From Pseudomonas kribbensis (GTDB lineage Bacteria > Pseudomonadota > Gammaproteobacteria > Pseudomonadales > Pseudomonadaceae): DNA of 64,000 nucleotides. Under the pieces are notes generated by a model that saw nothing but the letters and a program-made list of their open reading frames with translations, did no database searches and was not told where the DNA came from. Within the stretch, counting starts at the first letter, position 1. The number at the start of each line of letters is the position of its first letter. Position numbers and translations under genes: made by a program. The stretch covers positions 2,852,001 through 2,916,000 of the forward strand of contig NZ_CP029608.1 of assembly GCF_003352185.1 (NCBI RefSeq). The letters are read 5' to 3'. Below are positions 14,501-27,543 of this stretch, piece by piece.

Positions 14501-15895
14501 ATGACGATGGATCTGACTCGACGTCAGCTGTTGCAACGGGCAAGCATCGTCGGCGCTTTCAGTGCGCTGGCGACGAATCCGGCCTTGGGCCAATTGATGC
14601 GCGCACCCCGGTTGATCCCGTGGCGCAACTGGTCGGGCGGCCAGAGCTGCCTGCCGGCGGCGCGGGTGGCGCCGAAGAATCTGGATGAACTGACGGCGGT
14701 GATCCGGCAGGCACCGGGCAAGATTCGTCCGGTCGGCTCGGCACATTCCTTCAGCGCCTTGGTGCCCACCGACGGCACGTTGCTGTCGCTGAGCTACTTC
14801 AACGGCCTGCTCGATCACGACCCGAAAACCCTGCAAGCCGAATTCGCCGCCGGCACGCCGATGTCGCGCATGGGCACGCCGCTCAAGGACGTCGGCCAGG
14901 CCCTGCAAAACATGGCCGACATCGACTACCAGACCCTCGCCGGGGCGATTTCCACATCCACCCACGGCACCGGCAAAACCTTCCAGTCCTATTCCGCCCA
15001 CGTCTGCGGCATGCAACTGGTAACCGCCAGCGGCGAGGTGCTGGACTGCGACAGCCAGCGTCATCCCGAAGTGTTCAACGCCGCCCGGGTGTCCCTCGGC
15101 GCATTGGGTGTGGCCACCAAAATCCGCCTGCAAAACCGCCCGGCCTACCGCCTGCGCGAACGCCAGTGGATCGCCAAGACCGAAGAGTTGCTGGAAGACA
15201 TCGACAAGAACACGTCGGAAAACCAGCACTGGGAAATGCTCGTCGTCACCCATTCCGACTACGCCTTGTCCATCGCCCTCAACGAAACCACCGACCCGCC
15301 CACGCCGCCGATCCCGCCCGAAGAGGAGGGCGGCAACGAGTTCGTGACCCTGATCGAGAAGATCGACAAGTACGGCAGCGACTTCCCGGGTCTGCGCAGT
15401 TCGCTGCTCAACAGCCTGCGGCATCTGGCGAGTTTCGAGGATCGGGTGGGCGACTCGTTCGACATTTACGCCAACGTGCGCACCGTGCGCTTCAATGAGA
15501 TGGAATACTCGGTGCCGGCCGAACATGGTCCGGCGTGCCTGCGCGAGATTCTCAAGCTGATCCGCGACAAGGACCTGCGCACCTGGTTTCCCATCGAGTA
15601 CCGGTACGTCAAGGCCGACGACATTCCTTTGAGCATGTTCGAAGGTCGCGACAGCTGTTCGATCTCGGTCCACCAGCATTACCAGATGGACCATCACAAC
15701 TTCTTCGCCGCCGTCGAACCGATCTTCTGGAAGTACAACGGCCGCCCGCACTGGGGAAAATTGCACACGCTCAACGCGCGCACGTTGCAGACGTTGTACC
15801 CGCGCTGGCAGGAATTCATTCAGGTACGCCAGGCGCTGGACCCGAGCGGCAAGTTTCTCAACGGGCATCTGTCGTCGATTCTGGGGGTGAGCTGA
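14501..15895 (+). CDS. Tat-exported FAD-linked sugar-lactone oxidase (D-arabinono-lactone oxidase family)
   Basis: 464 residues. A twin-arginine signal (TRRQLLQRASIVGAFSALA, residues 6-24) exports the folded flavoprotein. Residues about 45-220 form the FAD-binding PCMH domain (RPVGSAHSFSALVPTDGTLLSLSYF; GAISTSTHGTG), and the rest is the ALO domain ending with PHWGKLHTL near the C-terminus. The family oxidises aldonolactones or alditols (L-gulono-, D-arabinono-lactone) with O2 or cytochrome c as acceptor. Location between a cytochrome lipoprotein and a Tat PLP enzyme (TGATG overlap) suggests a periplasmic dehydrogenase feeding the cytochrome. Substrate unknown. Confidence 0.85.
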   Translation: MTMDLTRRQLLQRASIVGAFSALATNPALGQLMRAPRLIPWRNWSGGQSCLPAARVAPKNLDELTAVIRQAPGKIRPVGSAHSFSALVPTDGTLLSLSYFNGLLDHDPKTLQAEFAAGTPMSRMGTPLKDVGQALQNMADIDYQTLAGAISTSTHGTGKTFQSYSAHVCGMQLVTASGEVLDCDSQRHPEVFNAARVSLGALGVATKIRLQNRPAYRLRERQWIAKTEELLEDIDKNTSENQHWEMLVVTHSDYALSIALNETTDPPTPPIPPEEEGGNEFVTLIEKIDKYGSDFPGLRSSLLNSLRHLASFEDRVGDSFDIYANVRTVRFNEMEYSVPAEHGPACLREILKLIRDKDLRTWFPIEYRYVKADDIPLSMFEGRDSCSISVHQHYQMDHHNFFAAVEPIFWKYNGRPHWGKLHTLNARTLQTLYPRWQEFIQVRQALDPSGKFLNGHLSSILGVS

Positions 15896-17178
15896 TGGCG
15901 GTCAATCGACGTAATTTCGTGCTCGGAACTTTGGGCGTCGGCGCCTTGCTCGTGGGCGTAGGGGCGTGGCTGCGGCCGGGGGATCGCGGCGGGCCTTACA
16001 GCGAGTATTTCCGGGCGCTGAACAACGAGCTCAAGACCAAAGGTCCGATGCGCCCGGTGTTGTTGATCGATCTGGATCGCCTCGACCACAACATCGACGT
16101 GGTGATGGGTTCAGTGAAACGCAGCGGCAAGCACCTGCGACTGGTGGAGAAATCGCTGCCGTCGCCGGGGCTGCTCAGTTACATCGGCCAACGGGCCGGG
16201 ACGCAACGGTTGATGTCGTTTCATCAGCCGTTTCTCAATCACGATGCGCTGGTCTATCCGCAGTCCGACATCCTGCTCGGCAAGCCGTTGCCGGTCCGTT
16301 CTGCCGAGCTGTTCTACCAGACCCACAAAGGCCCGTTCGACCCGGCGAAGCAACTGCAATGGCTGATCGACAACCCCGAACGTCTGCAGCAATACCTCGC
16401 GCTGGCCCAAGGGCTGGGCACCCGGATGCGGATCAACATCGAACTGGACGTCGGACTGCACCGGGGCGGCGTCAGTGACGTGAGCGTGCTCGGGCAGATG
16501 CTCGCGCTGATCGCCGCCAACCCGCAGCACCTGGAATTCGCCGGCTTCATGGGTTACGACCCGTTCGTGGGCATGGGCGTGCCGGGGATTCTCGGTTCAC
16601 CCGAGGAATTGTTCGCCAAAGTGATGGTGATTTATCAGCGCTGCGTCGACTTCACCCGGCAGCAATATCCGGCGCTGTGGCATGACGGCTTGTGCCTGAA
16701 CACTGCCGGAAGCCCAAGTTATCGCATGCACGAAAACGAAAGCCTGAGCAGCGAAGTCTCGGTGGGCACGGCGATGCTCAAGCCGACGCACTACGATCTG
16801 CCGTCACTGGTGGAGCATGTACCTGCCACGTACATCGCCACGCCGGTATTGAAAAGCACCGGCGCGGTGAACATCCCGGCACTGGATGACAAGTCGAAAC
16901 TGTTTTCGTGGTGGGACGCCAACCAGCGCCAGACTTTCTTTATCTATGGCGGCAACTGGATGTCCGAATTCGAGTCGCCGCCGGGACTTCAGAGCAATGG
17001 TGTTTACGGGCGCAGCTCGAATCAGGAGATGGTCAATGGTTCGAATGCCGTGGGGCTGACGGTGGAAGATCAGGTGTTCCTGCGGCCGACGCAGACCGAA
17101 GCCGTCCTTCTGCAATTCGGTGACTTGCTGGCGGTGCGTGGTGGCAAGATCGTCGATACCTGGCCGGTTTATTCCTGA
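15895..17178 (+). CDS. Tat-exported DSD1-family PLP enzyme (alanine racemase-like fold)
   Basis: 427 residues. The start ATG 15895 overlaps the preceding stop (TGATG). RR at residues 5-6 followed by a hydrophobic stretch (GTLGVGALLVGVGAW) suggests Tat export, which would let a PLP-loaded enzyme reach the periplasm. An alanine-racemase N-terminal barrel follows. LLIDLDRLDHNI at residues 57-68 is the usual entry, with Lys86 (LVEKSLPSP) the likely Schiff-base lysine. INIELDVGLHRGG and a C-terminal dehydratase-like domain with HVPATYIATPVLKS and DQVFLRP lie beyond it. The family holds D-threonine aldolases and D-serine dehydratases; the real substrate is unknown. A strong terminator follows. Confidence 0.75.
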   Translation: MAVNRRNFVLGTLGVGALLVGVGAWLRPGDRGGPYSEYFRALNNELKTKGPMRPVLLIDLDRLDHNIDVVMGSVKRSGKHLRLVEKSLPSPGLLSYIGQRAGTQRLMSFHQPFLNHDALVYPQSDILLGKPLPVRSAELFYQTHKGPFDPAKQLQWLIDNPERLQQYLALAQGLGTRMRINIELDVGLHRGGVSDVSVLGQMLALIAANPQHLEFAGFMGYDPFVGMGVPGILGSPEELFAKVMVIYQRCVDFTRQQYPALWHDGLCLNTAGSPSYRMHENESLSSEVSVGTAMLKPTHYDLPSLVEHVPATYIATPVLKSTGAVNIPALDDKSKLFSWWDANQRQTFFIYGGNWMSEFESPPGLQSNGVYGRSSNQEMVNGSNAVGLTVEDQVFLRPTQTEAVLLQFGDLLAVRGGKIVDTWPVYS

Positions 17179-17193
17179 CGTTAAATCACGACG

Positions 17194-17232
17194 AAAACCT
17201 GTGGGAACCAGCCAGTTCCCACAGGTTTTTTT
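17194..17232 (+). terminator. strong Rho-independent terminator
   Basis: A perfect 15-bp stem AAAACCTGTGGGAAC/GTTCCCACAGGTTTT (17194-17208, 17215-17229) with a 6-nt loop and seven T residues. It closes the cytochrome-oxidase-PLP operon and isolates it from the next cluster. Confidence 0.9.
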
Positions 17233-17383
17233 ATGCCCGCCGTTTCCCGATCAAATTCTGTAATGAAGCTTTTATGACAAAAGTTCGGTAGCACATCGCC
17301 AGTCCGGTCATGCCTATGTAACGCGCTTGAGGGGCCCTTTGGGCGCTTTTCACAAGCCGAGGCGGGACGCCGGGAGTGAGGCA

Positions 17384-17995
17384 ATGGGGACTATGGAACG
17401 CTACTCGAAAGTGGGCATGCAGGAACTCGATCAACGCCTGTCGAAGATCGTCGAAGCCGCGCGCAAGAAGCCGGTTTCGGTGTATCGCTACGGCGCGCCG
17501 TGGGTCTGGATCGTGTCGCAGGATGACTGGCAGGGCGCCTTGAAAGAGGTTTCCAGCTACATTCCGCCGGGTCATTCGCTGGTGCTGTTGCGCCCGCAGA
17601 TCGACGACCTGTTTGACGCCCACGCCGATCTCCTGCACGAACTCAACGCCCAGCCCGGCATGCTGATCCCGGCGCAAACAGTCATGCATATCCTGCTCCT
17701 GCAACTGTTGTATTCGGTGCCGAGCGAGCAGCAGTTGTTCGAGCAACTCAATTACAACCTGCTGTTCCGCTGGTTCGTCGGTCTGGGCCTGAACCAGAAA
17801 GTCTGGAGCTACAACGTCCTCAGTCGCGACATCGCCACGCTGCTCAACGAGCCCCGTGCGGTGCTGCTCATTCAGAAAATCATTGGCGAAGTGTTCTGCG
17901 GTGCCTTGCTGCAAATGCCCGAGTTCTCCTTGAACTTCGCGCTGCTGCACACCTGGCTCGGCAAGCACGCCTGCGCCCCGCACGTCAGCAACTGA
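17384..17995 (+). CDS. phdA: PhdA-like protein: Phd-type N-terminus fused to transposase DUF772 domain
   Basis: 203 residues from ATG 17384 (GGGAG at 7 nt; a TTG at 17327 is unsupported). Residues 4-50 (ERYSKVGMQELDQRLSKIVEAARKKPVSV, then a YGAPWVWIVSQDDW strand) look like a prevent-host-death antitoxin fold. Residues about 95-165 (PAQTVMHILLLQLLYSVPSEQQLFEQLNYNLLFRWFVGLGL) are the IS5/InsH N-terminal DUF772 helices. No catalytic DDE part and no terminal repeats are present, so this is a domesticated fragment, not a transposase. It resembles P. aeruginosa PA0691 (PhdA), also next to the TpsB gene. It probably leads the operon that follows 73 bp on. Confidence 0.6.
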   Translation: MGTMERYSKVGMQELDQRLSKIVEAARKKPVSVYRYGAPWVWIVSQDDWQGALKEVSSYIPPGHSLVLLRPQIDDLFDAHADLLHELNAQPGMLIPAQTVMHILLLQLLYSVPSEQQLFEQLNYNLLFRWFVGLGLNQKVWSYNVLSRDIATLLNEPRAVLLIQKIIGEVFCGALLQMPEFSLNFALLHTWLGKHACAPHVSN

Positions 17996-18068
17996 CGGCG
18001 GCCAGCAACCGACGCAATACACAGGGCGCCGAGACGCCAACAGGTCATCGCGAATTTCAGGGGGTAGT

Positions 18069-19664
18069 GTGGAGCAGATTTTCACGTCACGGCTGGCGCT
18101 GTGGGGCTGGCTGCTGGTGACGGCCGGCGTGCAGCCGGCGTTCGCCGAGGAGGCCGCAAACGCAGGTGCGCAGCGTCTAGTGGACGTCAACGAATACTTC
18201 GTGCGCGGCAACACCGTGCTCGATGCCCGGGCCATCGAAGAAGCGGTGTACCCGTTCCTCGGCCCGCAAAAAGCCCTGAGCGACATCGAAGGCGCGCGGG
18301 ACGCCTTGCAGAAGGTCTATCAGGAACGCGGCTATCAATCGGTGTTCGTCGAACTGCCGGAGCAGGCGGTGGCCGACGGCATCGTCTACCTGCAAGTCAG
18401 CGAGACCAAGGTCGGCCGGGTGCGGGTGGTCGGCGCCAAACACTATTCGCCACTGGACATCCGTGACAACGTCCCGGCGCTGAAGGAAGGCGAAGTGCCG
18501 GACTTCGCCAAGGTCCAGGGCGAACTGGCGCAACTCAACAAGACCCCGGGCCGGCAGGTGATGCCGCTGGTGCGCGAAGGTCAGCGCCCCGGCACCATGG
18601 ACGTCGATCTGCAAGTCGAAGACCAGAACCCGTGGACCGCCAGCGTGGGTCTGAACAACGACTACAGCGCCGACACCGAAAAGCTGCGCGCCGTAACCAG
18701 CCTCGGTTACAACAACCTCTGGCAGCTCGGCCACAGCATTAACCTGACCTACTTCACCGCACCGCAGGACACCGACAACGCCAAGGTCTGGTCCGGCTCC
18801 TACACCGCGCCGCTGACCGACCGCTGGAGCGTGCAGTTCTCCGGTTACCAGTCCGACAGTAACGTCGCCACCATCGGCGGCAGCAATGTGCTCGGCAAGG
18901 GCCATTCCTACGGCGTGTCGGCGATCTACACCATCCCGTCCAGCGGCAGTTGGTCGAACTCGCTGTCGGCCGGCATCGACTTCAAGGACTTCGACGAACG
19001 CCTGACCCTGTCCGGTGAGAGCGACAAGGTGCCGCTGAAATACGCGCCGTTCACCTTCGCCTACAACGGCTATCGCTACACCGAAAAAAGCCAGCTCGGC
19101 CTCGGCCTCAGCCTGGTCGCGGCCACTCGCAGCATTTTCGGCTACGGCAGCTCCGACGAAGAGTTCGACTACAAGCGCTACCGCGCCAAGCCGAGTTTTG
19201 CCGTGCTCAAGGGCGATACCAGTTTCACCTGGACCTTCGACAACGACTGGCAGAGCGCGAGCAAAGCCGCATTCCAGCTGGCGTCGGGGCCACTGGTTTC
19301 CAACGAACAATTCTCTGCCGGCGGCGCGACCTCGGTACGCGGCTATCTGGCCGCCGAGCGCACCGGCGATGACGGTGTGCTGCTCAGCCAGGAAGTCCGC
19401 ACACCGTCCCTGGCCAAGTACGCCGGCACCTGGATGCAGGACTGGCGCTTCTACGCCTTCGCCGAAGGCGCGCAACTCTACCTGCGCGACGAACTGCCGG
19501 ACCAGGACGCCAGTTACGCCCTGGCCAGTGTCGGCCTCGGCACCCGCGCCAGCCTGAGCAAATGGCTGTCCGGCAGCGTCGACTGGGGCTATCCGCTACT
19601 CGAAGGGCCGAACACCTCGAAACAGGAATCGCGCCTGCACTTCAACCTACAGGCCACTTTCTAA
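18069..19664 (+). CDS. pdtB: TpsB outer-membrane transporter (ShlB/FhaC/HecB family; PdtB-like)
   Basis: 531 residues from GTG 18069 (AGGGGG 4 nt before). Signal peptide residues 1-27 (LALWGWLLVTAGVQPAFA). A POTRA-type ShlB_2 domain spans about 35-115 (VNEYFVRGNTVLDARAIEEAVYPFLG; GYQSVFVELPEQ), with a second POTRA-like region to about 190. A 16-strand barrel then ends in LHFNLQATF with terminal Phe. The conserved VRGY (FSAGGATSVRGYLAAE, around residue 425) is the L6 tip motif that controls secretion. TpsB proteins secrete one large TpsA partner, usually encoded beside them; none is present here. Downstream come ExbB/ExbD/TonB and a porin. Confidence 0.9.
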   Translation: MEQIFTSRLALWGWLLVTAGVQPAFAEEAANAGAQRLVDVNEYFVRGNTVLDARAIEEAVYPFLGPQKALSDIEGARDALQKVYQERGYQSVFVELPEQAVADGIVYLQVSETKVGRVRVVGAKHYSPLDIRDNVPALKEGEVPDFAKVQGELAQLNKTPGRQVMPLVREGQRPGTMDVDLQVEDQNPWTASVGLNNDYSADTEKLRAVTSLGYNNLWQLGHSINLTYFTAPQDTDNAKVWSGSYTAPLTDRWSVQFSGYQSDSNVATIGGSNVLGKGHSYGVSAIYTIPSSGSWSNSLSAGIDFKDFDERLTLSGESDKVPLKYAPFTFAYNGYRYTEKSQLGLGLSLVAATRSIFGYGSSDEEFDYKRYRAKPSFAVLKGDTSFTWTFDNDWQSASKAAFQLASGPLVSNEQFSAGGATSVRGYLAAERTGDDGVLLSQEVRTPSLAKYAGTWMQDWRFYAFAEGAQLYLRDELPDQDASYALASVGLGTRASLSKWLSGSVDWGYPLLEGPNTSKQESRLHFNLQATF

Positions 19665-19679
19665 CAAGGAGCACTTTCC

Positions 19680-21479
19680 ATGCAGCGCCTATTCCTTTCG
19701 TTGTTGATCTGCCTGGGCTTCGTGCTCCCGGCCACGGCTCAGGCCTGGTGGCAGGACGACTGGCATTACCGCAAACAGATCGCCGTCGACACCACGCCAC
19801 AAGGTGCCGGAATCAATCAGGCCTTGGGTCGCACTGCGCTGCTGGTGCGCCTGCACACCGGCAACTTCACCTTTGATGGCGTGAAAGAGGACGGCTCGGA
19901 CCTGCGCTTCGTCGCAGCCGACGACAAGACCGTGCTCAACCACCAGATCGAAAGCTTCGACGCGTTGATGGGCATGGCGCTGATCTGGGTCGATGTGCCG
20001 AATGTCGAGGGCGGTCAGCGCCAGGACATCTGGATGTATTACGGCAACCAGAAAGCCCCGGCCACCAGTAACGGTCAGCTCACATTCGATCCGAATTACA
20101 CCGCGCTCTATCACTTCGATGGCGCCACCGGCACCCCGGCCAAAGACACCACCGCCTACGGCAACACCGCGCAGAGCGCGACCGGCGCCGCGATTGACGG
20201 CGTGGTAGGGCGGGCCCTGCAGTTCAGCGGCCAGCCGTTGCTGCTGCCGGCCAGTCCGTCGTTGCAGCACAACGCTGGCAGCGCCTTCACCTTCAGTGCC
20301 TGGCTGCGACTGGATCAGGCCAATGGCGAGCAACTGATCCTGGCCCGCCGCGAAGGCACCAACAGCCTGCTGGTCGGTGTGAATCAGGGCGTACCGTTCG
20401 TGGAGATCGACGGCCAGCGCGCCGTGGCCACGCAACCGCTGAATCCGGGTCAATGGCAACACGTCGCACTGACCGCGGAAGGTTCGAAAGTGACGCTGTA
20501 CATCAACGGTCGCGAAGGTGCGACGCTGGCTCAAGCGATGCCGGCGTTCAACTCGGTCATGGCCATCGGCGCCGACCTGCACGAAGGTCCTTTCCAGCCG
20601 TTCGTGGGCGCCATCGACGAACTGCGCCTGTCGAAAGTCGCCCGTCCGGCACCGCTGCTGCTGGCCGACGCTACCTCCCAGGGTGCCGAGTCGAAACTGG
20701 TCTCCTATGGCGTCGATGAAGAACAGTCCGGTTTCGGTTTCGGCAGCCTCGGCTTCCTGCTCAACGCGGTACCGGTGGACGCCTGGGTGATCATCGCGGT
20801 GCTGGTGCTGATGATGTTCCAGTCGTGGATCATCATGCTGCGCAAGAACCGCACCCTGAGCCGTGTCACCGCTGCCAACGAAGACTTCCGCGTGCAGTTC
20901 GCCAAGGTCGGCACGCGCCTGGAAATGTTCGCCGACGACACGCAACTCGCCCAGCGCCTGCAGCACTCGCCGCTGTGGCGCCTGTACCAGGTGGCGGTGA
21001 AAGAGATCCGCACCCGCCGCGAGCAGGGCGCCGATACCTCGTCCGTCTCCGCCGCGACCATCGAAGCCATCCGCTGCTCCATGGACGGCGTGCGCACCCG
21101 GGAAAACCAGCAACTGAGCTCGAAACTCTCGACCCTGTCCAACGCCATCGCCGGCGGCCCGTACATCGGCCTGCTCGGCACCGTGCTGGGGATCATGGTG
21201 GTGTTCCTCGGCACCGCCATGGCCGGTGACGTCAACATCAACGCCATTGCGCCGGGTATGGCGGCCGCGTTGCTCGCCACGGCCATGGGCCTGTTCGTCG
21301 CAATCCCGGCGCTGTTTGGCTACAACCGTCTGATCACCCGCAACAAGGAAGTCAGCGCCGACATGCGCGTGTTCGTCGACGAGTTCATCACCCGTCTGGC
21401 GGAGATGCACGGCGAAGGTCAGTCCAGTGAAGCGGCGCATCAGCGCGGTCATCACGCCAACCACTCCGTACCGGCCTGA
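19680..21479 (+). CDS. exbB: ExbB/TolQ-type proton channel with DUF2341-LamG periplasmic domain
   Basis: 599 residues, far longer than ExbB (about 240). Signal peptide 1-22; DUF2341 at about 23-130 (WWQDDWHYRKQIAVDTT, NHQIESFD, DIWMYYGN); LamG/concanavalin-like jelly roll at about 140-320 (FTFSAWLRLDQ; GQWQHVALT; VTLYINGREGATL). TM1 is near 363-387, TM2 near 490-514 and TM3 near 520-547 (GLLGTVLGIMVVFLGTAM; GMAAALLATAMGLFVAIPA), carrying the MotA/TolQ/ExbB signature. The energising motor is thus fused to an extracytoplasmic lectin-like module that could bind carbohydrate or envelope polymer. GGAG precedes ATG 19680, and the gene is 15 bp after the TpsB stop. Confidence 0.9.
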   Translation: MQRLFLSLLICLGFVLPATAQAWWQDDWHYRKQIAVDTTPQGAGINQALGRTALLVRLHTGNFTFDGVKEDGSDLRFVAADDKTVLNHQIESFDALMGMALIWVDVPNVEGGQRQDIWMYYGNQKAPATSNGQLTFDPNYTALYHFDGATGTPAKDTTAYGNTAQSATGAAIDGVVGRALQFSGQPLLLPASPSLQHNAGSAFTFSAWLRLDQANGEQLILARREGTNSLLVGVNQGVPFVEIDGQRAVATQPLNPGQWQHVALTAEGSKVTLYINGREGATLAQAMPAFNSVMAIGADLHEGPFQPFVGAIDELRLSKVARPAPLLLADATSQGAESKLVSYGVDEEQSGFGFGSLGFLLNAVPVDAWVIIAVLVLMMFQSWIIMLRKNRTLSRVTAANEDFRVQFAKVGTRLEMFADDTQLAQRLQHSPLWRLYQVAVKEIRTRREQGADTSSVSAATIEAIRCSMDGVRTRENQQLSSKLSTLSNAIAGGPYIGLLGTVLGIMVVFLGTAMAGDVNINAIAPGMAAALLATAMGLFVAIPALFGYNRLITRNKEVSADMRVFVDEFITRLAEMHGEGQSSEAAHQRGHHANHSVPA

Positions 21480-21490
21480 GGAGCACTGAC

Positions 21491-21916
21491 ATGGCGTCCG
21501 TAAATGCCTCCCACGACGATGATGAAGATGCAGCGGTAGACAGCATCAACATCACGCCACTGGTGGACGTGCTGATGGTGGTGCTGGTGATGTTCATCCT
21601 CACCGCCACCGCACAGGTCTCCGGGATCCAGATCAACCTGCCCAAGGCCAGCGCCGCGGTGTCGCTGTCCGAGGCCAAGACCAAGGCGATTTCGGTCAAC
21701 GACGGCGGCCAGGTGTTCCTCGACGCCTACCCGGTGACCCTGCCGGAGCTGGAAGAGCGCCTGCGCATCGAGAAGGCGCAGAACCCGGACTTCCCGGTGA
21801 TCGTGCGCGGCGACGCCACGGTGCAGTACCAGAAGGTCATCGAAGTGCTGGATCTGTTGCGCCGGCTCGAACTGTCCCAGGTCGGTCTCGTCACCGGCAA
21901 ACCGACGCAGGGCTGA
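21491..21916 (+). CDS. exbD: ExbD/TolR family biopolymer transport protein
   Basis: 141 residues: a short acidic cytoplasmic tail (DDDEDAAVDS), one transmembrane helix (ITPLVDVLMVVLVMFILTATA) with the essential proton-carrying Asp26, and a periplasmic domain ending about residue 137. It forms the stator complex with the neighbouring ExbB-type protein, coupling proton flow to the TonB protein encoded 3 bp downstream. GAGGAG lies 9 nt before ATG 21491. Confidence 0.95.
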   Translation: MASVNASHDDDEDAAVDSINITPLVDVLMVVLVMFILTATAQVSGIQINLPKASAAVSLSEAKTKAISVNDGGQVFLDAYPVTLPELEERLRIEKAQNPDFPVIVRGDATVQYQKVIEVLDLLRRLELSQVGLVTGKPTQG

Positions 21917-21919
21917 GTC

Positions 21920-22624
21920 ATGACTGCACAGATGCCAATCGAACCGCTGCCGGTGAAGAAGTCGCCAGTGCGCTACGTGAAGTGGGGCGCCGGGCTGATC
22001 CTCGGCGCACTCGCCGCGTGGTTCCTGTGGCAGTGGGCCAACGACATGAGCGGCATCCGCCGGGAAGCACCGAAGGTGCCGACGATCATTCCGTTGCCGC
22101 CACCGCCACCTCCGCCGCCGGAAAAACCGCCGGAGCCGGAAACCCCGGTGGAAGAAAAAGTCGTCGAGCCGGAGCCGACACCCGAGCCACAGGAAGTGAA
22201 ACCCGAGGAAGAAGCGCCGCCATCGCCGGCGGACGACCTGGCCAACCCGATGCAAATGGACGGCGACGCCCAGAGCGGCAACGACGCCTTCAACATCGGC
22301 GCGGGCAAGGGCGGCGGCATGGCCGGCGCCGGTGGTGGGCGTGTGGGCAACGGTACTTACAGCCAGTTCCTCGCGTTCACCTTCCAGAAGCTGCTGCGCG
22401 AGAACCCGGACCTGCGCAACCTCGCGTTCTCGCTGCAGGCCGATGTCTGGCTGAGCGGAGTCGGCGAGATCACCCGGGTCGAACTGGTCAAGTCCAGCGG
22501 CAACCCCGAGATCGACACGCAGGTGCTGGCCGCGTTGCGTAACGCGCCCCATCTGAGCGAACGGCCACCGGCCTCCATCACCTTGCCTGTGCGCATGTCC
22601 CTGCAAGGGCGGCGTCCGGGTTAA
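21920..22624 (+). CDS. tonB: TonB-like energy transducer
   Basis: 234 residues. Cytoplasmic 1-20, membrane anchor about 21-41 (WGAGLILGALAAWFLWQW), Pro/Glu-rich periplasm-spanning stretch 50-105 (PLPPPPPPPPEKPPEPETP), a Gly-rich segment (GAGKGGGMAGAGGG) and a TonB C-terminal domain (145-234; VWLSGVGEITRVELVKSSGNPEIDTQVL). It delivers energy from ExbB-ExbD to an outer-membrane partner. In this operon the candidates are the TpsB barrel or the downstream porin; no TonB-dependent receptor gene is nearby. Start ATG 21920 is 3 bp after the exbD stop. Confidence 0.9.
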   Translation: MTAQMPIEPLPVKKSPVRYVKWGAGLILGALAAWFLWQWANDMSGIRREAPKVPTIIPLPPPPPPPPEKPPEPETPVEEKVVEPEPTPEPQEVKPEEEAPPSPADDLANPMQMDGDAQSGNDAFNIGAGKGGGMAGAGGGRVGNGTYSQFLAFTFQKLLRENPDLRNLAFSLQADVWLSGVGEITRVELVKSSGNPEIDTQVLAALRNAPHLSERPPASITLPVRMSLQGRRPG

Positions 22625-22663
22625 CCGAATTCATAAAGTTGTATGAAAAGGAGTTGTGTGCAG

Positions 22664-24361
22664 ATGATTTCCAACGTGAATCGATTGTCCCTGGCGGTCG
22701 GCATGGTCATCGCGACCCTGGTCGGTCAGGCCGCGGCAGCGCCTGCGCCCTCGGAGAACGCCACGATCAATCTGATCCGCTTGCTGGTCGAGCAGGGCAT
22801 TCTGAAACAGGACAAGGCCGACGCTTTGATCGCCCAGGCCCAGAACGAAGCGGCCCAGGCCAAGCAGGCTGCGGCGTCTACCGCCGTGGCGGCCGGGCCG
22901 GTCGCCGCACCGGGCGATGTGCGGGTGCAATACGTGCCGGCCGCGGTGCGCGACCAGATCCGTGATCAGGTCAAGGCTGAAGTCATGGCCACCGCCAAGC
23001 AGGAAAACTGGGCCGCGCCCAACACCTTTCCGGACTGGGCGTCGCGCATCAGCTTCGACGGCGATATTCGCCTGCGTGACGAATCGCGCTACTACTCGGG
23101 CAGCAACAGCAACGAAATCGTCGACTTCGCCCGACTCAACAACAACGGCCCGTACGACGTGAACCCCAACAGCAGCACCGCGTTGCCGCCGTTGCTCAAC
23201 ACCCGTGAAGACCGCACCAACCTGTTCCGCCTGCGCGCGCGGCTGGGCATGAAGGCGGAAATTTCGCCGGAATGGACCGCCGGCATCCGCATCGGCACCG
23301 GCTCGGACAACAACCCGGTGTCGACCACCCAGAACCTCGGCGGCGGTTTTGCCAAAAAGGACATCTGGCTCGATCAGGGCTACCTGACCTGGAAGCCGTC
23401 GGATGAACTGACCCTGACCGGTGGCCGCTTCGGCAACCCGTTCATGTCCACCGACATGCTGTATTCCAACGACCTGAATTTCGACGGTGTGGCGGCAATT
23501 TTCGACCACAAACTGAACCGCGACTGGGGCGTGTTCGGCACCGTCGGCGCGTTCCCGGTGGATTACACCAGCGACACCACCACCAGCAACGGCTTCGACA
23601 AGGAAGAAAGCGACAACAAATGGCTGTACGGCGCGCAGGTCGGCGCCAAGTGGGCGATCAACAGCAACAACCGCTTGAAAGGTGCGTTGGCCTACTACCG
23701 CTTCGAAGACATTCAGGGCCAGCGCTCCAGCCCTTGCGAGCCGTGGGCCGGCGCGCCGGGCTGCGACAGCGACGGCACCCGCGCGGCGTTCATGCAGAAG
23801 GGCAACAGCGTGTTTCTGCTGCGCGACATCACGCCGAACCCGCTCAACCCGACCACCACGCCGCAGCCGCAATTTGTTGGCCTGGCGTCGGAGTTCAACC
23901 TGCTGGACCTGAACCTGGTCTGGGACGCCGACCTGCCTGCGGACTTCAAACTGCGCAGCCAGGGCAACTACATCCACAACCTCGGCTACGACGAAGGCGA
24001 CATGCGCAAGCGTTCGGCCGGGCAACTGGTCAACAACCTCGACAGCAGCGGCAACATCGAAAGCGGCGCCAATGCGTGGATGGTGCAGTTCACCCTCGGC
24101 AACGCGCTGGACCTGAAGAAGCAGGGCGACTGGAACCTGTTCGCCGGCTACAAGTACATCCAGCCGGATGCCTTGCCGGACGGCTTCAACGACTCGTCGT
24201 TCCACCTCGGCGGCACCAACGCCAAGGGTTACATCCTCGGGGGCAACTACGGTCTGGCGAAGAACGTCTACGCCACCGGTCGCTGGATGAGCACCGAGGC
24301 GGTGTATGGCGCGCCGTTCGACATCGACGTCTTGCAGCTCGAGATCAACACGCGCTTCTAA
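22664..24361 (+). CDS. putative outer-membrane porin, 565 aa
   Basis: Start ATG 22664 (AAGGAG 10 nt upstream) rather than 22643, which has no ribosome site. Signal peptide 1-27, then an Ala/Gln-rich helical segment with a predicted coiled coil (residues about 40-90, LVEQGILKQDKADALIAQAQ). The rest is an aromatic-rich beta barrel of alternating strands ending FDIDVLQLEINTRF with the C-terminal Phe expected of BAM substrates. Matches the Pseudomonas 'putative porin' family; the substrate is unknown. Being inside the ExbBD-TonB operon suggests functional linkage. Confidence 0.8.
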   Translation: MISNVNRLSLAVGMVIATLVGQAAAAPAPSENATINLIRLLVEQGILKQDKADALIAQAQNEAAQAKQAAASTAVAAGPVAAPGDVRVQYVPAAVRDQIRDQVKAEVMATAKQENWAAPNTFPDWASRISFDGDIRLRDESRYYSGSNSNEIVDFARLNNNGPYDVNPNSSTALPPLLNTREDRTNLFRLRARLGMKAEISPEWTAGIRIGTGSDNNPVSTTQNLGGGFAKKDIWLDQGYLTWKPSDELTLTGGRFGNPFMSTDMLYSNDLNFDGVAAIFDHKLNRDWGVFGTVGAFPVDYTSDTTTSNGFDKEESDNKWLYGAQVGAKWAINSNNRLKGALAYYRFEDIQGQRSSPCEPWAGAPGCDSDGTRAAFMQKGNSVFLLRDITPNPLNPTTTPQPQFVGLASEFNLLDLNLVWDADLPADFKLRSQGNYIHNLGYDEGDMRKRSAGQLVNNLDSSGNIESGANAWMVQFTLGNALDLKKQGDWNLFAGYKYIQPDALPDGFNDSSFHLGGTNAKGYILGGNYGLAKNVYATGRWMSTEAVYGAPFDIDVLQLEINTRF

Positions 24362-24378
24362 GGCGCCGGGAGAGGCAA

Positions 24379-25008
24379 ATGCACACGCGAATCTTGTTGT
24401 TGGGTCTGGGTTTGATTGTTGCCAGCGGGGCCAGCGCCGAAGGCATGGAGGAACGTCTGCGCACCCAGTTGCGCAGCACCACCCAGCAGCTGCAAACCCT
24501 GCAAAGTCAGCAAGCCCAGGCCAGCGCCGCGCAACTGGCGGCGCAGAACGAAGCCAAGGCAGCGCAGGCGCAAATCAAGCAATTGACTGCCGAACTGGCC
24601 AAAGCCAAAGGCCTCGCCGAGCAACTGGCCGGGCAGCAACAGAGCCTGCACAGCCAGGCCCAGGCGCAGGTGGCGGCCAGCAACGAGCAGACCGGCAAGT
24701 TCAAGAAGGCCTATGACGAGCTGTTGGTCATGGCCCGTGCCAAAGAGGCAGAACGGTCTAAGCTTCAAGCGCAATTGGCCGAACGTGACACACAAGTGCA
24801 GCAATGTTCGGTCAAGAATCAACAAATGTACGGCGTGGCCAAGCAGATCCTTACCGCCTACGAAAACATCGATGTGGCCGAGGTGATGAAGATCCGCCAG
24901 CCCTTCGCCGGCAGCGCCCGGGTCAAGTTCGATGAACTGGCTCAGGGCTTCGGCGATGACCTGTACAAGACACAATTCGATGCGCCGCAAGCCGCGATCG
25001 CGCACTGA
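24379..25008 (+). CDS. periplasmic coiled-coil protein
   Basis: 209 residues, GGAG 7 nt before ATG 24379, 17 bp after the porin stop. Signal peptide 1-20 (LLLGLGLIVASGASA). A long Gln/Ala-rich coiled coil (about 24-140, with repeated QLQTLQSQQ, AELAKAKGLAEQLAG and KLQAQLAERD) is followed by a small globular end with one Cys (VQQCSVKNQQ). It could span the periplasm or scaffold the transporter complex. No enzymatic motif. Identity beyond the cluster is unknown. Confidence 0.75.
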   Translation: MHTRILLLGLGLIVASGASAEGMEERLRTQLRSTTQQLQTLQSQQAQASAAQLAAQNEAKAAQAQIKQLTAELAKAKGLAEQLAGQQQSLHSQAQAQVAASNEQTGKFKKAYDELLVMARAKEAERSKLQAQLAERDTQVQQCSVKNQQMYGVAKQILTAYENIDVAEVMKIRQPFAGSARVKFDELAQGFGDDLYKTQFDAPQAAIAH

Positions 25009-25037
25009 TTAAAAGACTCATAGACAAGGAAGAAGTA

Positions 25038-25502
25038 ATGACTCAATTGATCTCCCACGTATCTCCACAATCCCTGACCGAAGTGCTGCAAGCCGCCGGT
25101 TACCGCGTCAACCAGACCGAACAGAACGGCATCGTTCAACTGCTGAGCGCCAGTCAGGGCATCGGTTACGCGGTGCGTTTCGGCAACCCGGCGGTGGTAG
25201 AGCAGGGCAGCTACGTCGACTTCACCTTCAGCTGCGCACTGCGCGTACAGGGTGAATTGCCGTCGGGTGTGGCCGAGCAGTGGAACGCGACCCGTCGCTT
25301 TGCCCGGTTGTCGTTGCAGGGCGAGTTTCTGGTGATGGAAATGGACGTGGTGGTGGCCGCTGGCGTCAGCAGCGATTACCTGCGCGGCAATCTGGAACTG
25401 TGGGATCGCCTGCTGCAGGAATTCATCGTGTACCTGCGTGACTTCACCCAGAACGCCGCCGCCCAGGCTCCAAAGGTTGAGCAAGAGGAAGTCGCGCTGT
25501 GA
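25038..25502 (+). CDS. YbjN-domain protein
   Basis: 154 residues, AAGGAAG 6-9 nt before ATG 25038. No signal peptide. The layout SPQSLTEVLQAAGYRV, QLLSASQGIGYAVRFGNP, and RRFARLSLQGEFLVMEMDVVVAAGVS is that of the YbjN/type III-chaperone-like fold. E. coli YbjN influences stress responses and motility; here a chaperone-like cytoplasmic role for the cluster is conceivable. The stop overlaps the next start by 4 nt (GTGA). Confidence 0.75.
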   Translation: MTQLISHVSPQSLTEVLQAAGYRVNQTEQNGIVQLLSASQGIGYAVRFGNPAVVEQGSYVDFTFSCALRVQGELPSGVAEQWNATRRFARLSLQGEFLVMEMDVVVAAGVSSDYLRGNLELWDRLLQEFIVYLRDFTQNAAAQAPKVEQEEVAL

Positions 25503-26446
25503 CGAAACCTGCCATGGTGATCAGCGCCGCTGCGGTGGCGCTGTTGGTGGTGGCCGTGGCGCTGGTGGTGCGGCCGGGCAATGACCCGGTCGCCGCCCAG
25601 CAACCGGCGCCGGTCGTGGGTGCCAGTGCCGGGCCGGCGGTGGCGCGGTTGGGCAATCAGCAAGTCACACCGGAGGAATTGCAGGCGCTGCTGGCGGCTG
25701 TTCCACCGCAGACCCGCGAGCAACTGCGCGGCAATCGTGAGGCGCTGGAGCGCTGGATACGTTCACGCCTGGCCGAAAAAGCCGTGCTGGAACAGGCCGA
25801 CGCCCAGGGCTGGGCGCAGCGTCCGGACGTGGTTCGGCAGACCCGCGCCGCCACTGAGCAGATCGTGTTCCGCGACTATTTGCAGTCGGTGAGCAAAGTG
25901 CCGGCGGATTATCCGAGCGCCGTCGAATTGCAGCAGGCCTATGACGCGGGCAAGGCCAACTGGCAGACGCCGACGCTGTATCGGGTCAGCCAGATTTTCC
26001 TTGGGGTGAACGAGCCGCAGAACCTTGAGACCGTGCGCAAGCAGGCGGCGGACTTGAGCAAGAAGGCGCAAGCATCTCCGACGGACTTTGCAGCGATGGC
26101 CAAGGAGTTTTCTCAGGATCGGCTCACTGCCGAGCGCGGTGGTGACACCGGCCTGCAACCGTTGCAGCAACTGGTGCCGGAAGTGCGTGGCGCCGTGGCG
26201 CGACTCAAGGTCGGCGCGGTGTCCGATCCCGTTCAAAGCAGCGCTGGCTTCCACGTGATCAAACTCACCGAGCAACAACCGGCCCGTACCGCGACCCTCG
26301 ACGAATTGCGTGACCAACTGACTCAGGCCTTGCGGGCACAACGTCAGGAACAGATCGCCCAGGCGTATCTGGACGGCATGCTCAACACCGCGACGCTGAG
26401 CATCGATGGGGCCGAGCTCAACAAGGTGCTGGAGGAAAAACTGTAA
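25499..26446 (+). CDS. parvulin-type peptidyl-prolyl isomerase (PpiC/SurA-like), membrane-anchored
   Basis: 315 residues from GTG 25499, overlapping the YbjN gene by 4 nt. An N-terminal hydrophobic segment (VISAAAVALLVVAVALVV) without an obvious cleavage site anchors it in the inner membrane. A SurA-like helical N-domain follows (VARLGNQQVTPEEL, EQLRGNREALERWIRSRLAEKAVLEQAD). One rotamase domain sits at about 155-265 (YRVSQIFLGV, GDTGLQPLQQLVPEVRGAV, PVQSSAGFHVIKLTEQ). It probably assists folding of the barrel proteins encoded upstream. Confidence 0.9.
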   Translation: MTKPAMVISAAAVALLVVAVALVVRPGNDPVAAQQPAPVVGASAGPAVARLGNQQVTPEELQALLAAVPPQTREQLRGNREALERWIRSRLAEKAVLEQADAQGWAQRPDVVRQTRAATEQIVFRDYLQSVSKVPADYPSAVELQQAYDAGKANWQTPTLYRVSQIFLGVNEPQNLETVRKQAADLSKKAQASPTDFAAMAKEFSQDRLTAERGGDTGLQPLQQLVPEVRGAVARLKVGAVSDPVQSSAGFHVIKLTEQQPARTATLDELRDQLTQALRAQRQEQIAQAYLDGMLNTATLSIDGAELNKVLEEKL

Positions 26447-26517
26447 TTCGGACTCACCGCAGCTCCCACAGGAGATGTGTGCAAAGGCAAACAACAAAGA
26501 TCGACAGGGAGTCATCG

Positions 26518-27495
26518 ATGTCATTCACCGAACCCGCAGGACGACAGGGCAGCCCCGATTTTCGCTGGCCGCAGGAAAAGGCCGAACCCTGGCTGGCGCA
26601 GGTTGCGAAGATCGAGGGCGAAATCGCGCAATACTTTCTGGTCAGCGCCCGCTGCGGCTGCTTCATGCAGGCCGCCCGCAGCCTCAACGTGCGCTCGACC
26701 CTGCTGCGCAAACAACTGGCGCAGCTTGAACAGCAACTGCAATGCGCGCTGTTCAGCTTCCAGGGCAGCGCCTTGACCCTGACCCGCGAAGGCCAGCAAT
26801 TGCAGGCGCAACTGGTGGCCCTGGCCCACGAACGCAAACTGCCCGTGATCGAGCAACCCCTGATCAGGCTGGCCGTCGCCGAATCGATCCTGCACGACAT
26901 CCTCGGCCGCGACCTCATCGCACTGCTGCGCCGCAACGCCAGCGTACGCCTCGAGATCATCGCCCTCGACAGCGAACTCGCCCTGCGCGCGGTCAGCGCC
27001 GACATCGTCCTGTGGCTCGCCCACGGCGAAACGCCGCACCCCGGCCCGACCTTCGCCACCAGCGAACCGCAACGCCTCGCGCAACTGGAATACCAGCCTC
27101 ACATCGCCAAGCGCTACTCCCGCGTGACTGCACGCCCGGAAAGTCCCGATGATCTTGCCGATTTCATGCTGGTGCAATGGCAGCATGATCGGCAGATCGA
27201 CAGCTTCCGGCCATGGAACAATCTGGTCGAGCAACGTCTGGCCGGGGTGGTGCAGATGCAGTCTTATGAACTGATGCTGGAGATGATCCGGTGCAGCGCT
27301 TGCATTGGTTTGTTGCCGATGTACATGAGCCGGTTTGATCGCGGGTTGGTGGCGTTGCCGGGGTTGTTTGACGAGGCGATGAGGTTGCAGGCGTGGTTGG
27401 CGGTGAACAGTGACTCGCAGAGTGTCGGGGAAGTGCAGGTATTGGTGGAGTTGATTCAACGCACGTTCAATGAACGACAGGAGTGGTTTGAATAA
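26518..27495 (+). CDS. divergent LysR-type transcriptional regulator
   Basis: 325 residues from ATG 26518 (GGGAG 7 nt upstream). Winged HTH at about residues 30-95 (QYFLVSARCGCFMQAARSLNVRSTLLRKQLAQLEQQL; LFSFQGSALTLTREG), the LysR pattern with an unusual Cys-rich helix (RCGCF). A periplasmic-binding-like effector domain follows (IRLAVAESIL...IEIIALD; YELMLEMIRCSACIGLLPMYM). As the last gene of the TpsB-ExbBD-TonB block it is a candidate local regulator. P. aeruginosa carries a regulator at the same place (PA0701, from memory). Confidence 0.75.
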   Translation: MSFTEPAGRQGSPDFRWPQEKAEPWLAQVAKIEGEIAQYFLVSARCGCFMQAARSLNVRSTLLRKQLAQLEQQLQCALFSFQGSALTLTREGQQLQAQLVALAHERKLPVIEQPLIRLAVAESILHDILGRDLIALLRRNASVRLEIIALDSELALRAVSADIVLWLAHGETPHPGPTFATSEPQRLAQLEYQPHIAKRYSRVTARPESPDDLADFMLVQWQHDRQIDSFRPWNNLVEQRLAGVVQMQSYELMLEMIRCSACIGLLPMYMSRFDRGLVALPGLFDEAMRLQAWLAVNSDSQSVGEVQVLVELIQRTFNERQEWFE

Positions 27496-27506: not shown

Positions 27507-27543
27507 GGACGGACTTAATTTAATAAATCCGTCCCCTTTTTTT
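27507..27543 (+). terminator. Rho-independent terminator
   Basis: Stem GGACGGA/TCCGTCC (27507-27513, 27528-27534) with an AT-rich 14-nt loop and seven T residues (27537-27543), 9 bp after the LysR-type gene. A second short T-tract follows at 27553-27558. It closes the 10-kb TpsB/ExbBD/TonB block. Confidence 0.8.

Follow-up and report, generated by a model that had tools for sequence, protein, structure and literature searches.

Introduction

Two-partner secretion (TPS, type Vb) pairs a TPS-domain exoprotein, TpsA, with a POTRA-barrel transporter of the outer membrane, TpsB, and adjacency of the two genes is usual but not defining. In the canonical systems FhaB/FhaC and CdiA/CdiB the same two components are found and there is no motor; type V secretion as a whole is regarded as independent of an energy source and driven by folding, and its energetics are termed an apparent conundrum where a 2017 review takes them up (PMC5422565). 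The closest described relative of the locus analyzed here, a ten-gene block in a 64,000-nucleotide stretch of the Pseudomonas kribbensis chromosome (the window; NZ_CP029608.1, positions 2,852,001 to 2,916,000), is the pdt system of P. aeruginosa, which belongs to the PUMA3/VreI regulon and comprises PdtA/PdtB, exbB2-exbD2-tonB4 and PA0696-PA0701. The order of gene kinds is the same in both, phdA-TpsB-exbB-exbD-tonB-porin-PA0697-YbjN-peptidyl-prolyl isomerase (PPIase)-LysR, but whereas pdtA lies beside the machinery in P. aeruginosa, the P. kribbensis machinery operon is ∼0.67 Mb from a TpsA gene. As detailed below, the block very probably represents the export half of a Pdt-type TPS system with its cargo gene elsewhere on the chromosome.

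The exbB2-exbD2-tonB4 genes are called "still uncharacterized" in a 2020 paper (PMC7035377), which cites Faure 2014 for the function of PdtA/PdtB, and no established role for the P. aeruginosa motor, porin or PA0697 was found in the literature searched. The association of TPS with ExbBD is not in itself new, because Llamas 2009 reported tpsB together with exbBD and PA0696 homologues, with tpsA sometimes in another cluster, in P. fluorescens Pf5 and Pf01, P. entomophila, B. vietnamiensis, R. palustris and Janthinobacterium; this is a remark on six bacteria in a discussion passage that carries no census, promoter comparison or tree. In haem piracy by HxuC-HxuB-HxuA, too, TPS is joined to TonB-powered machinery (PMC5422565), but HxuC is a TonB-dependent transporter in its own operon, whereas the P. 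kribbensis block encodes its own motor and, in place of such a receptor, a Porin_5 barrel without a plug. No description of an energized TPS, and no mechanistic account of the motor, appeared among the literature matches listed, in line with the initial annotation of the window; most subscription journals and all preprints lay outside the scope of this search, which for DUF3739, the C-terminal domain of the TpsA described below, returned 0 papers.

Results

A distant, unpaired TpsA gene is the probable partner of the block

The block (positions 17384-27495 of the window) consists of ten genes, all on the plus strand and with the contents given by the initial annotation, nine of them supported by a Pfam scan and the tenth being a coiled-coil protein outside that scan. 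The likeness to P. aeruginosa PA0691-PA0701 drawn in the initial annotation agrees with the gene list published in PMC7035377; the match is one of gene kind and order rather than an alignment to the PAO1 sequence. TpsB carries POTRA_2 (61.6 bits) and ShlB (75 bits) domains, and the Porin_5 gene scores 693 bits.

The annotation described the transporter as having no TpsA substrate, and supposed that either the TpsA gene lies elsewhere or the complex has another cargo. To the extent that no TpsA gene adjoins the block the description stands, but genome-wide it does not. The P. kribbensis genome (6.32 Mb, one contig, C1) encodes three TPS-domain proteins and four ShlB-type proteins. Two conventional TpsA/TpsB pairs are found at C1:3634000-3650000 (L012) and C1:4168000-4178000 (L013), with TpsAs of 3542 and 1489 aa that carry Fil_haemagg_2 repeats, leaving unpaired the block TpsB, a further TpsB whose neighbor is a collagen-like protein, and a single orphan TpsA of 4175 aa (C1:3525410-3537937, minus strand) with no adjoining TpsB, so that the search for a TpsA lacking its own TpsB did return a gene elsewhere. 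The orphan has a TPS domain (101 bits) and, unlike the other two TpsAs, a DUF3739 at its C-terminus, and the 5′ end of its match is 667,865 bp from the start of the block TpsB. By elimination, and by the co-occurrence reported below, it is very probably the cognate of the block TpsB. With a TpsB of POTRA domains and ShlB/FhaC-type barrel in the block, and a cognate TPS-domain TpsA assigned in this way, the system has the components of type Vb.

On the 5′ side of the orphan TpsA gene are two PBP_like_2 proteins, followed by T2SSF, GspE-type, GspD-type and further type II secretion system (T2SS) genes and, beyond these, FecR, sigma-factor and STN + TonB_2 proteins resembling VreR, VreI and VreA; the locus thus appears hxc/lap-like from its gene content. 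In P. aeruginosa, vreA/I/R-, T2SS- and phosphate-linked genes flank pdtA, according to the descriptions of that locus in PMC2729926 and PMC7035377, and a 2009 paper gives VreA the same STN plus TonB/TolA-like make-up. The T2SS cluster is split at C1:3549400-3559290 (L014:1500-11390) by ∼10 kb of genes unrelated to it, which as judged by eye are PAAR-like, ATPase-like and others.

The remaining unpaired transporter gene, in C1:790000-798000 (L011:4067-7425), encodes a 562-aa TpsB-like protein (POTRA_2 66.5 bits, ShlB 33.7 bits) with no TPS-domain neighbor, next to a 517-aa Collagen_mid protein. It is a better candidate than the block TpsB for an unusual cargo.

TpsB, motor and TpsA are inherited together across Pseudomonas

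In one draw of 119 Pseudomonas genomes, searched with the first 500 residues of TpsA and with a cut of at least 70% identity for TpsB, TpsB, the DUF2341-bearing ExbB and TpsA were found in an identical set of 39 genomes; three further genomes had TpsB-like matches of at most 31% identity. The gap between the TpsB and DUF2341 matches is 226-273 bp in all 39, meaning that the motor stays with TpsB throughout, and exbB, exbD and tonB follow pdtB in 80/80 named Pseudomonas loci (the best 80 of 142 confirmed), with Porin_5 present in 79 and the contig ending earlier in one. The proposed coupling of TpsB to a private ExbB/ExbD/TonB set is therefore borne out as a gene arrangement, and the regular parting of motor and TpsB genes that would have spoken against it is not seen in the genus. 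The TpsA gene behaves differently: counting as neighbors genes on the same strand with the TpsA 5′ end within 15 kb, TpsA and TpsB are neighbors in 10 of the 39 genomes, separated within a single contig in 19 and split between two contigs in 10, and the block is thus conserved without an adjoining TpsA, as had been asked. Among the 80 named loci, pdtA falls within the fetched flank in 22, the upstream flank being shorter than 2 kb in 10 and 9 kb in one. These loci were tallied separately from twelve further ones (L101-L112), since two of the twelve repeat named loci (L108 = L071, L109 = L057). The closest named relatives, again among the best 80 of 142, belong to the fluorescens group, with a best-segment TpsB identity of 98% in P. 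bananamidigenes.

In two genomes the TpsA gene is apparently interrupted while the block is kept (G034:C1:4293595-4295078 and G108:C1:3150974-3152374; two frames or an open frame of 829 aa).

The two loci share an upstream element

Local alignment of the regions upstream of phdA and of the TpsA gene gave a score of 42, and 1000 base shuffles reached 38 at the 99th percentile and 47 at most; because the shuffle maximum exceeds the score, the alignment alone is only suggestive. The pattern GTTCGGTNGC-N13-24-GCCTATG occurs twice in the 6.32 Mb, once before each locus, while its reversed control gave 0 occurrences. Since the pattern was derived from this very pair of upstream regions, other genomes provide the better test of the element. 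An element of the form ATGAAG..TGACA..GTTCGGT, allowing up to 3 mismatches, is present before both genes in 20/20 other genomes and in 0/400 shuffled regions; the 20 were picked from the 28 genomes, besides that of the window, with non-neighboring TpsA and TpsB genes, and are related genomes rather than independent trials. In four of the 20 the two genes are on different contigs, and in one of these (G083) the TpsA gene must reach the end of a 41.6-kb contig and another contig has TpsB 1.7 kb from its start, a split that may be a contig break between neighbors.

GTTCGGT and GCCTATG were considered as a -35/-10 pair, but the bases between them number 22 upstream of phdA and 17 upstream of the TpsA gene. 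Because with these spacings the two cannot both be -35/-10 pairs, what we describe is a shared element and not mapped promoter boxes. In P. aeruginosa, both pdt promoters are reported to bind PhoB and to carry sigma-VreI elements alongside a pho box (PMC4971064, in its account of these promoters). The element seen here is Pho-box-like and extracytoplasmic function (ECF)-like, and the two P. kribbensis loci may be under common control.

The association extends across the class

We then considered a draw of 369 genomes from the class. DUF2341 is found in 30 of these (32 places), DUF3739 in 24 (23 above cut-off) and Porin_5 in 54, with full-length Porin_5 (466-696 bits) in 24 and the next best matches partial, at 122 bits or less. 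The surroundings of the DUF2341 matches show ExbB-ExbD-TonB modules, most of which include Porin_5 and many a coiled-coil protein, although in 8 of the 30 genomes the region fetched lacks such a module. The module count of 22 genomes includes the window genome and G188, whose 3.7-kb motor contig has no ExbD on it. Module and above-cut-off DUF3739 coincide in 21 genomes, with the module alone in one (G222, 85% complete) and DUF3739 alone in two (G318, 64% complete, and G219, with its match at a contig edge), both of which have a full Porin_5; module and full-length Porin_5 coincide in 22, the module never occurring alone and Porin_5 alone in two. Fisher p values for co-occurrence are at most 1e-30, a nominal figure that ignores kinship.

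In the 21 other module genomes, TpsB matches were found in 19 and TpsA matches in 19, and in 17 of the 21 the motor has both within 40 kb; in the remaining four the motor contig is 3.7-21.7 kb long. G339 and G188 have no PF03865 or PF05860 match, and in both DUF3739 is within 2 kb of the DUF2341 match. Outside Pseudomonas, TpsB and the motor are usually not next-door but part of one cluster, in which the ∼10-kb TpsA gene often separates them, and an apparent lack of TpsB beside most such motors proved to be an artefact of ∼9-kb flanks with this gene intervening. The motor-linked TpsAs have open frames of 3399-4193 aa. We also considered whether the size of TpsA accounts for the motor, but other TpsAs reach 6172 aa.

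Motor residues and the fold of the barrel

All parts needed for TonB-type energy transduction are present: ExbB, ExbD with its membrane Asp, and the TonB C-terminal domain. In 24 aligned rows ExbD Asp26 is conserved throughout and ExbB T501 and T534 are invariant; these presumably correspond to D25 of E. coli ExbD and to T148 and T181 of E. coli ExbB. Motor residues are thus kept as in TolQ-TolR-TolA and ExbB-ExbD-TonB, and what is extra is the DUF2341/laminin-G-like N-terminal half of ExbB, ∼330 residues long. The ExbB model (mean predicted local distance difference test [pLDDT] 85.7, predicted template modeling score [pTM] 0.58) has a beta-rich N-terminal half, resembling lectin-like folds, and a TolQ/ExbB-like C-terminal half; its first match among solved structures is TolQ of TolAQR (E 9e-10), followed by ExbB. 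DUF2341 is listed in PMC12505986 among N-terminal appendages of unknown function, carried by non-flagellar relatives of the stators.

Porin_5 was modeled (mean pLDDT 75.2) as a barrel of 16 strands, counted by eye, with periplasmic helices and no plug. Its best structural match is the attachment porin OmpM1 at a template modeling score for the query (TMq) of 0.42, and the likeness is for that reason taken at the level of the fold only. The linker contains the segment VRVQYVP in the window and a VRVxYVP-like segment in 20/20 rows (with V/I, R/K and Y/F exchanges), a candidate TonB contact. The Pfam scan found no outer-membrane receptor with plug and TonB box among the block proteins. We discarded the idea that Porin_5 is a general TonB client, as its full-length form in the class draw is confined to genomes of the Pdt-like system.

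Motor-linked TpsBs form one group

In a 38-row TpsB tree, all 25 motor-linked TpsBs fall on one side of a branch with support 100/99. The rows comprise 24 of the 31 TpsB genes of 21 class genomes, eight representatives of 93 pdtB-family members, L011-L013 and L098-L100, and the genes outside the tree are two in G428, two in G222, G331:C61:57381, G237:C15 and G357:C4. It should be noted that the motor label was given by linkage and that the pdtB hidden Markov model also contained L098-L100. The solved relatives of TpsB by sequence are CdiB (6wim, 1e-11), BamA (8xnb) and FhaC (4qky).

FhaC has a plug helix and linker. CdiB aligns only from chain residue 53, whereas the POTRA region of the window TpsB begins ∼12 residues past the likely signal peptide. 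Loss of the plug helix owing to the motor was considered, but a short N-terminus is shared by the non-motor sisters L098, L099, L160, L161, L163 and L164 and so does not mark energization. A TonB box at this N-terminus was likewise discarded, as L132 has only ∼5 residues (by eye) before POTRA.

Features of the block and its surroundings

The coordinates of all features are collected in Table 1. The phdA-like protein matches Phd at 19.1 bits, under the cut-off of 29.8, and has a good match to DUF772, a transposase domain, by which it differs from a plain antitoxin. For the 209-aa coiled-coil protein, an NCBIfam scan yielded a 17-bit SMC match alone, far under cut-off. The annotation's upstream pyridoxal phosphate (PLP) enzyme is indeed there, as an Ala_racemase_N protein (15910-17178) followed by a stem and T-run, a probable terminator, and preceded by an ALO-type flavin adenine dinucleotide (FAD) oxidase (14501-15895). 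A relative of the PLP gene lies upstream in 30 of the 80 named loci, one at 58% identity.

Table 1. Coordinates of the block genes and flanking signals within the window
Feature	Coordinates	Strand	Basis
Stem CCTGTGGGAAC / GTTCCCACAGG + T-run, probable terminator of upstream PLP-enzyme gene	17198..17232	+	read from sequence
Composite promoter element: ATGAAG...TGACA half-sites (Pho-box-like), GTTCGGT, GCCTATG; also at distant TpsA gene	17263..17318	+	
phdA-like, sub-threshold Phd/YefM N-terminus + DUF772 transposase-like domain	17384..17995 (start 17384 or 17393)	+	Pfam
pdtB-like TpsB outer-membrane transporter, POTRA_2 + ShlB	18069..19664	+	Pfam, tree, sequence search of solved structures
ExbB/TolQ-type proton channel, DUF2341 + laminin-G-like N-terminal half	19680..21479	+	Pfam (DUF2341, Laminin_G, MotA_ExbB), model
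ExbD/TolR, conserved Asp26	21491..21916	+	Pfam, alignment
TonB, Pro-rich linker, TonB_2 C-terminus	21920..22624	+	Pfam
Porin_5 outer-membrane barrel, periplasmic N-terminal helices, VRVxYVP-like segment	22643..24361	+	Pfam, model, alignment
Coiled-coil protein, 209 aa, signal-peptide-like start, PA0697 position	24379..25008	+	
YbjN family protein	25038..25502	+	Pfam
PPIC-type prolyl isomerase, hydrophobic N-terminal anchor	25499..26446	+	Pfam
LysR-type regulator	26479..27495 (start GTG 26479 or ATG 26518)	+	Pfam
Stem + T-run, probable terminator of block	27508..27543	+	read from sequence

Discussion

We consider it likely that the block encodes Pdt-type type Vb machinery that is split from its substrate gene, with the motor working at the outer membrane on behalf of the system. 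Phosphate shortage would then lead PhoB and a VreI-type sigma factor to turn on both loci through the shared element, and the giant TpsA would pass the inner membrane by Sec, be held open in the periplasm by the anchored PPIase and the coiled-coil protein as putative chaperones, and dock through its TPS domain on the POTRA domains of TpsB, which would pass it across the outer membrane. Most conjecturally of all, ExbB-ExbD-TonB would spend the proton gradient on outer-membrane work, for which the co-conserved Porin_5 is a likelier target than TpsB, and this work would help the ∼4000-residue TpsA to pass, finish or be released. A broader proposal, which we put forward only tentatively, is that there is a distinct, class-wide branch of type Vb powered by the proton motive force, in which a TpsB clade, a giant DUF3739 TpsA, a laminin-G-bearing ExbB-ExbD-TonB and Porin_5 may form one trans-envelope machine, TonB pulling on outer-membrane parts to complete translocation or release.

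Several observations weigh against an energized export step. Type V translocation can run without external energy in vitro, as stated in the part of PMC5422565 on energetics, and in P. aeruginosa overexpressing VreI an insertion in tonB4 (PA0695) left zebrafish virulence at the wild-type level (PMC2729926); in the same experiments, as that paper presents them, tpsA and tpsB insertions did likewise. Giant TpsAs are found away from a DUF2341 motor (one of 3542 aa in P. kribbensis itself and, elsewhere, open frames of 4083 and 6172 aa), and size alone therefore does not demand a motor. No conserved TonB-box-like stretch was seen at the N-terminus of the aligned TpsBs. DUF2341-ExbBD-TonB sets without a TpsB or full TpsA in the fetched flanks also exist (L125, L138 and L139). 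Finally, the tie to P. aeruginosa PdtA/PdtB is by gene kind and order and not by direct sequence comparison, and the support within P. kribbensis is at the sequence level. As for the three sets just named, each is the second in its genome: that in G254 (L125) adjoins V/A-type ATPase genes, that in G237 (L138) is inside a T2SS cluster (Secretin, T2SSE) with a weak 216-aa TpsA-like match (9e-7) on the other strand, and that in G268 (L139) has a V-ATPase-E-like neighbor under cut-off.

Among other explanations, the one we take most seriously, while thinking it rather unlikely, is that export is energy-free and the motor energizes a barrel, Porin_5 or some other, to take up a phosphate-rich ligand caught at the cell surface by the secreted TpsA, in the way that HxuA/HxuB work with the TonB-dependent HxuC. 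The HxuCBA precedent itself (PMC5422565) speaks for such a scavenging role, as do the two PBP_like_2 proteins next to the distant TpsA, the restriction of full-length Porin_5 to 24 of 369 genomes that all have the module and/or DUF3739, the periplasmic linker segment conserved in 20/20 rows that could contact TonB, and, in the portions of PMC4971064, PMC2729926 and PMC7035377 that deal with it, the phosphate-starvation control of P. aeruginosa pdt together with the alkaline-phosphatase-exporting Hxc. The modeled barrel, however, is plugless and in this unlike TonB-dependent transporters, the block has no inner-membrane importer, and the motor lies directly behind TpsB in every one of the 39 Pseudomonas genomes. 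The same constancy, and the distance of the motor from the vreA-like gene in P. kribbensis, make it very improbable that VreA (STN plus a TonB-like C-terminus) senses envelope load and that the motor serves feedback in the regulon rather than transport, even though a VreA-like STN + TonB_2 protein is encoded at the distant TpsA locus and VreI and VreR are described as controlling the pdt genes of P. aeruginosa (PMC4971064, PMC2729926).

Equally doubtful is the alternative raised in the initial annotation, that a TpsB without a TpsA partner exports or imports a different cargo together with the motor. No TpsA lies beside the block, and pdtA is within reach in only a minority of the named loci, but a single TpsA family accompanies the machinery in 39/39 genomes and shares a promoter element with it in all 20 examined. 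A pdtA-like gene elsewhere with matching control, which the annotation itself named as a refutation, is found here as far as sequence can tell, and another cargo is very probably the wrong explanation. The question of what the motor does is nonetheless real, and sharper than first stated, because the motor, Porin_5 and the TpsA/TpsB pair are co-inherited class-wide.

The Pdt-type reading has two consequences. The probable cargo gene of a seemingly orphan TpsB can lie at a distance of hundreds of kilobases, traceable by co-occurrence and a shared promoter element, and a TPS lineage that keeps its own proton-driven motor throughout the class makes the energy independence of type V secretion directly testable.

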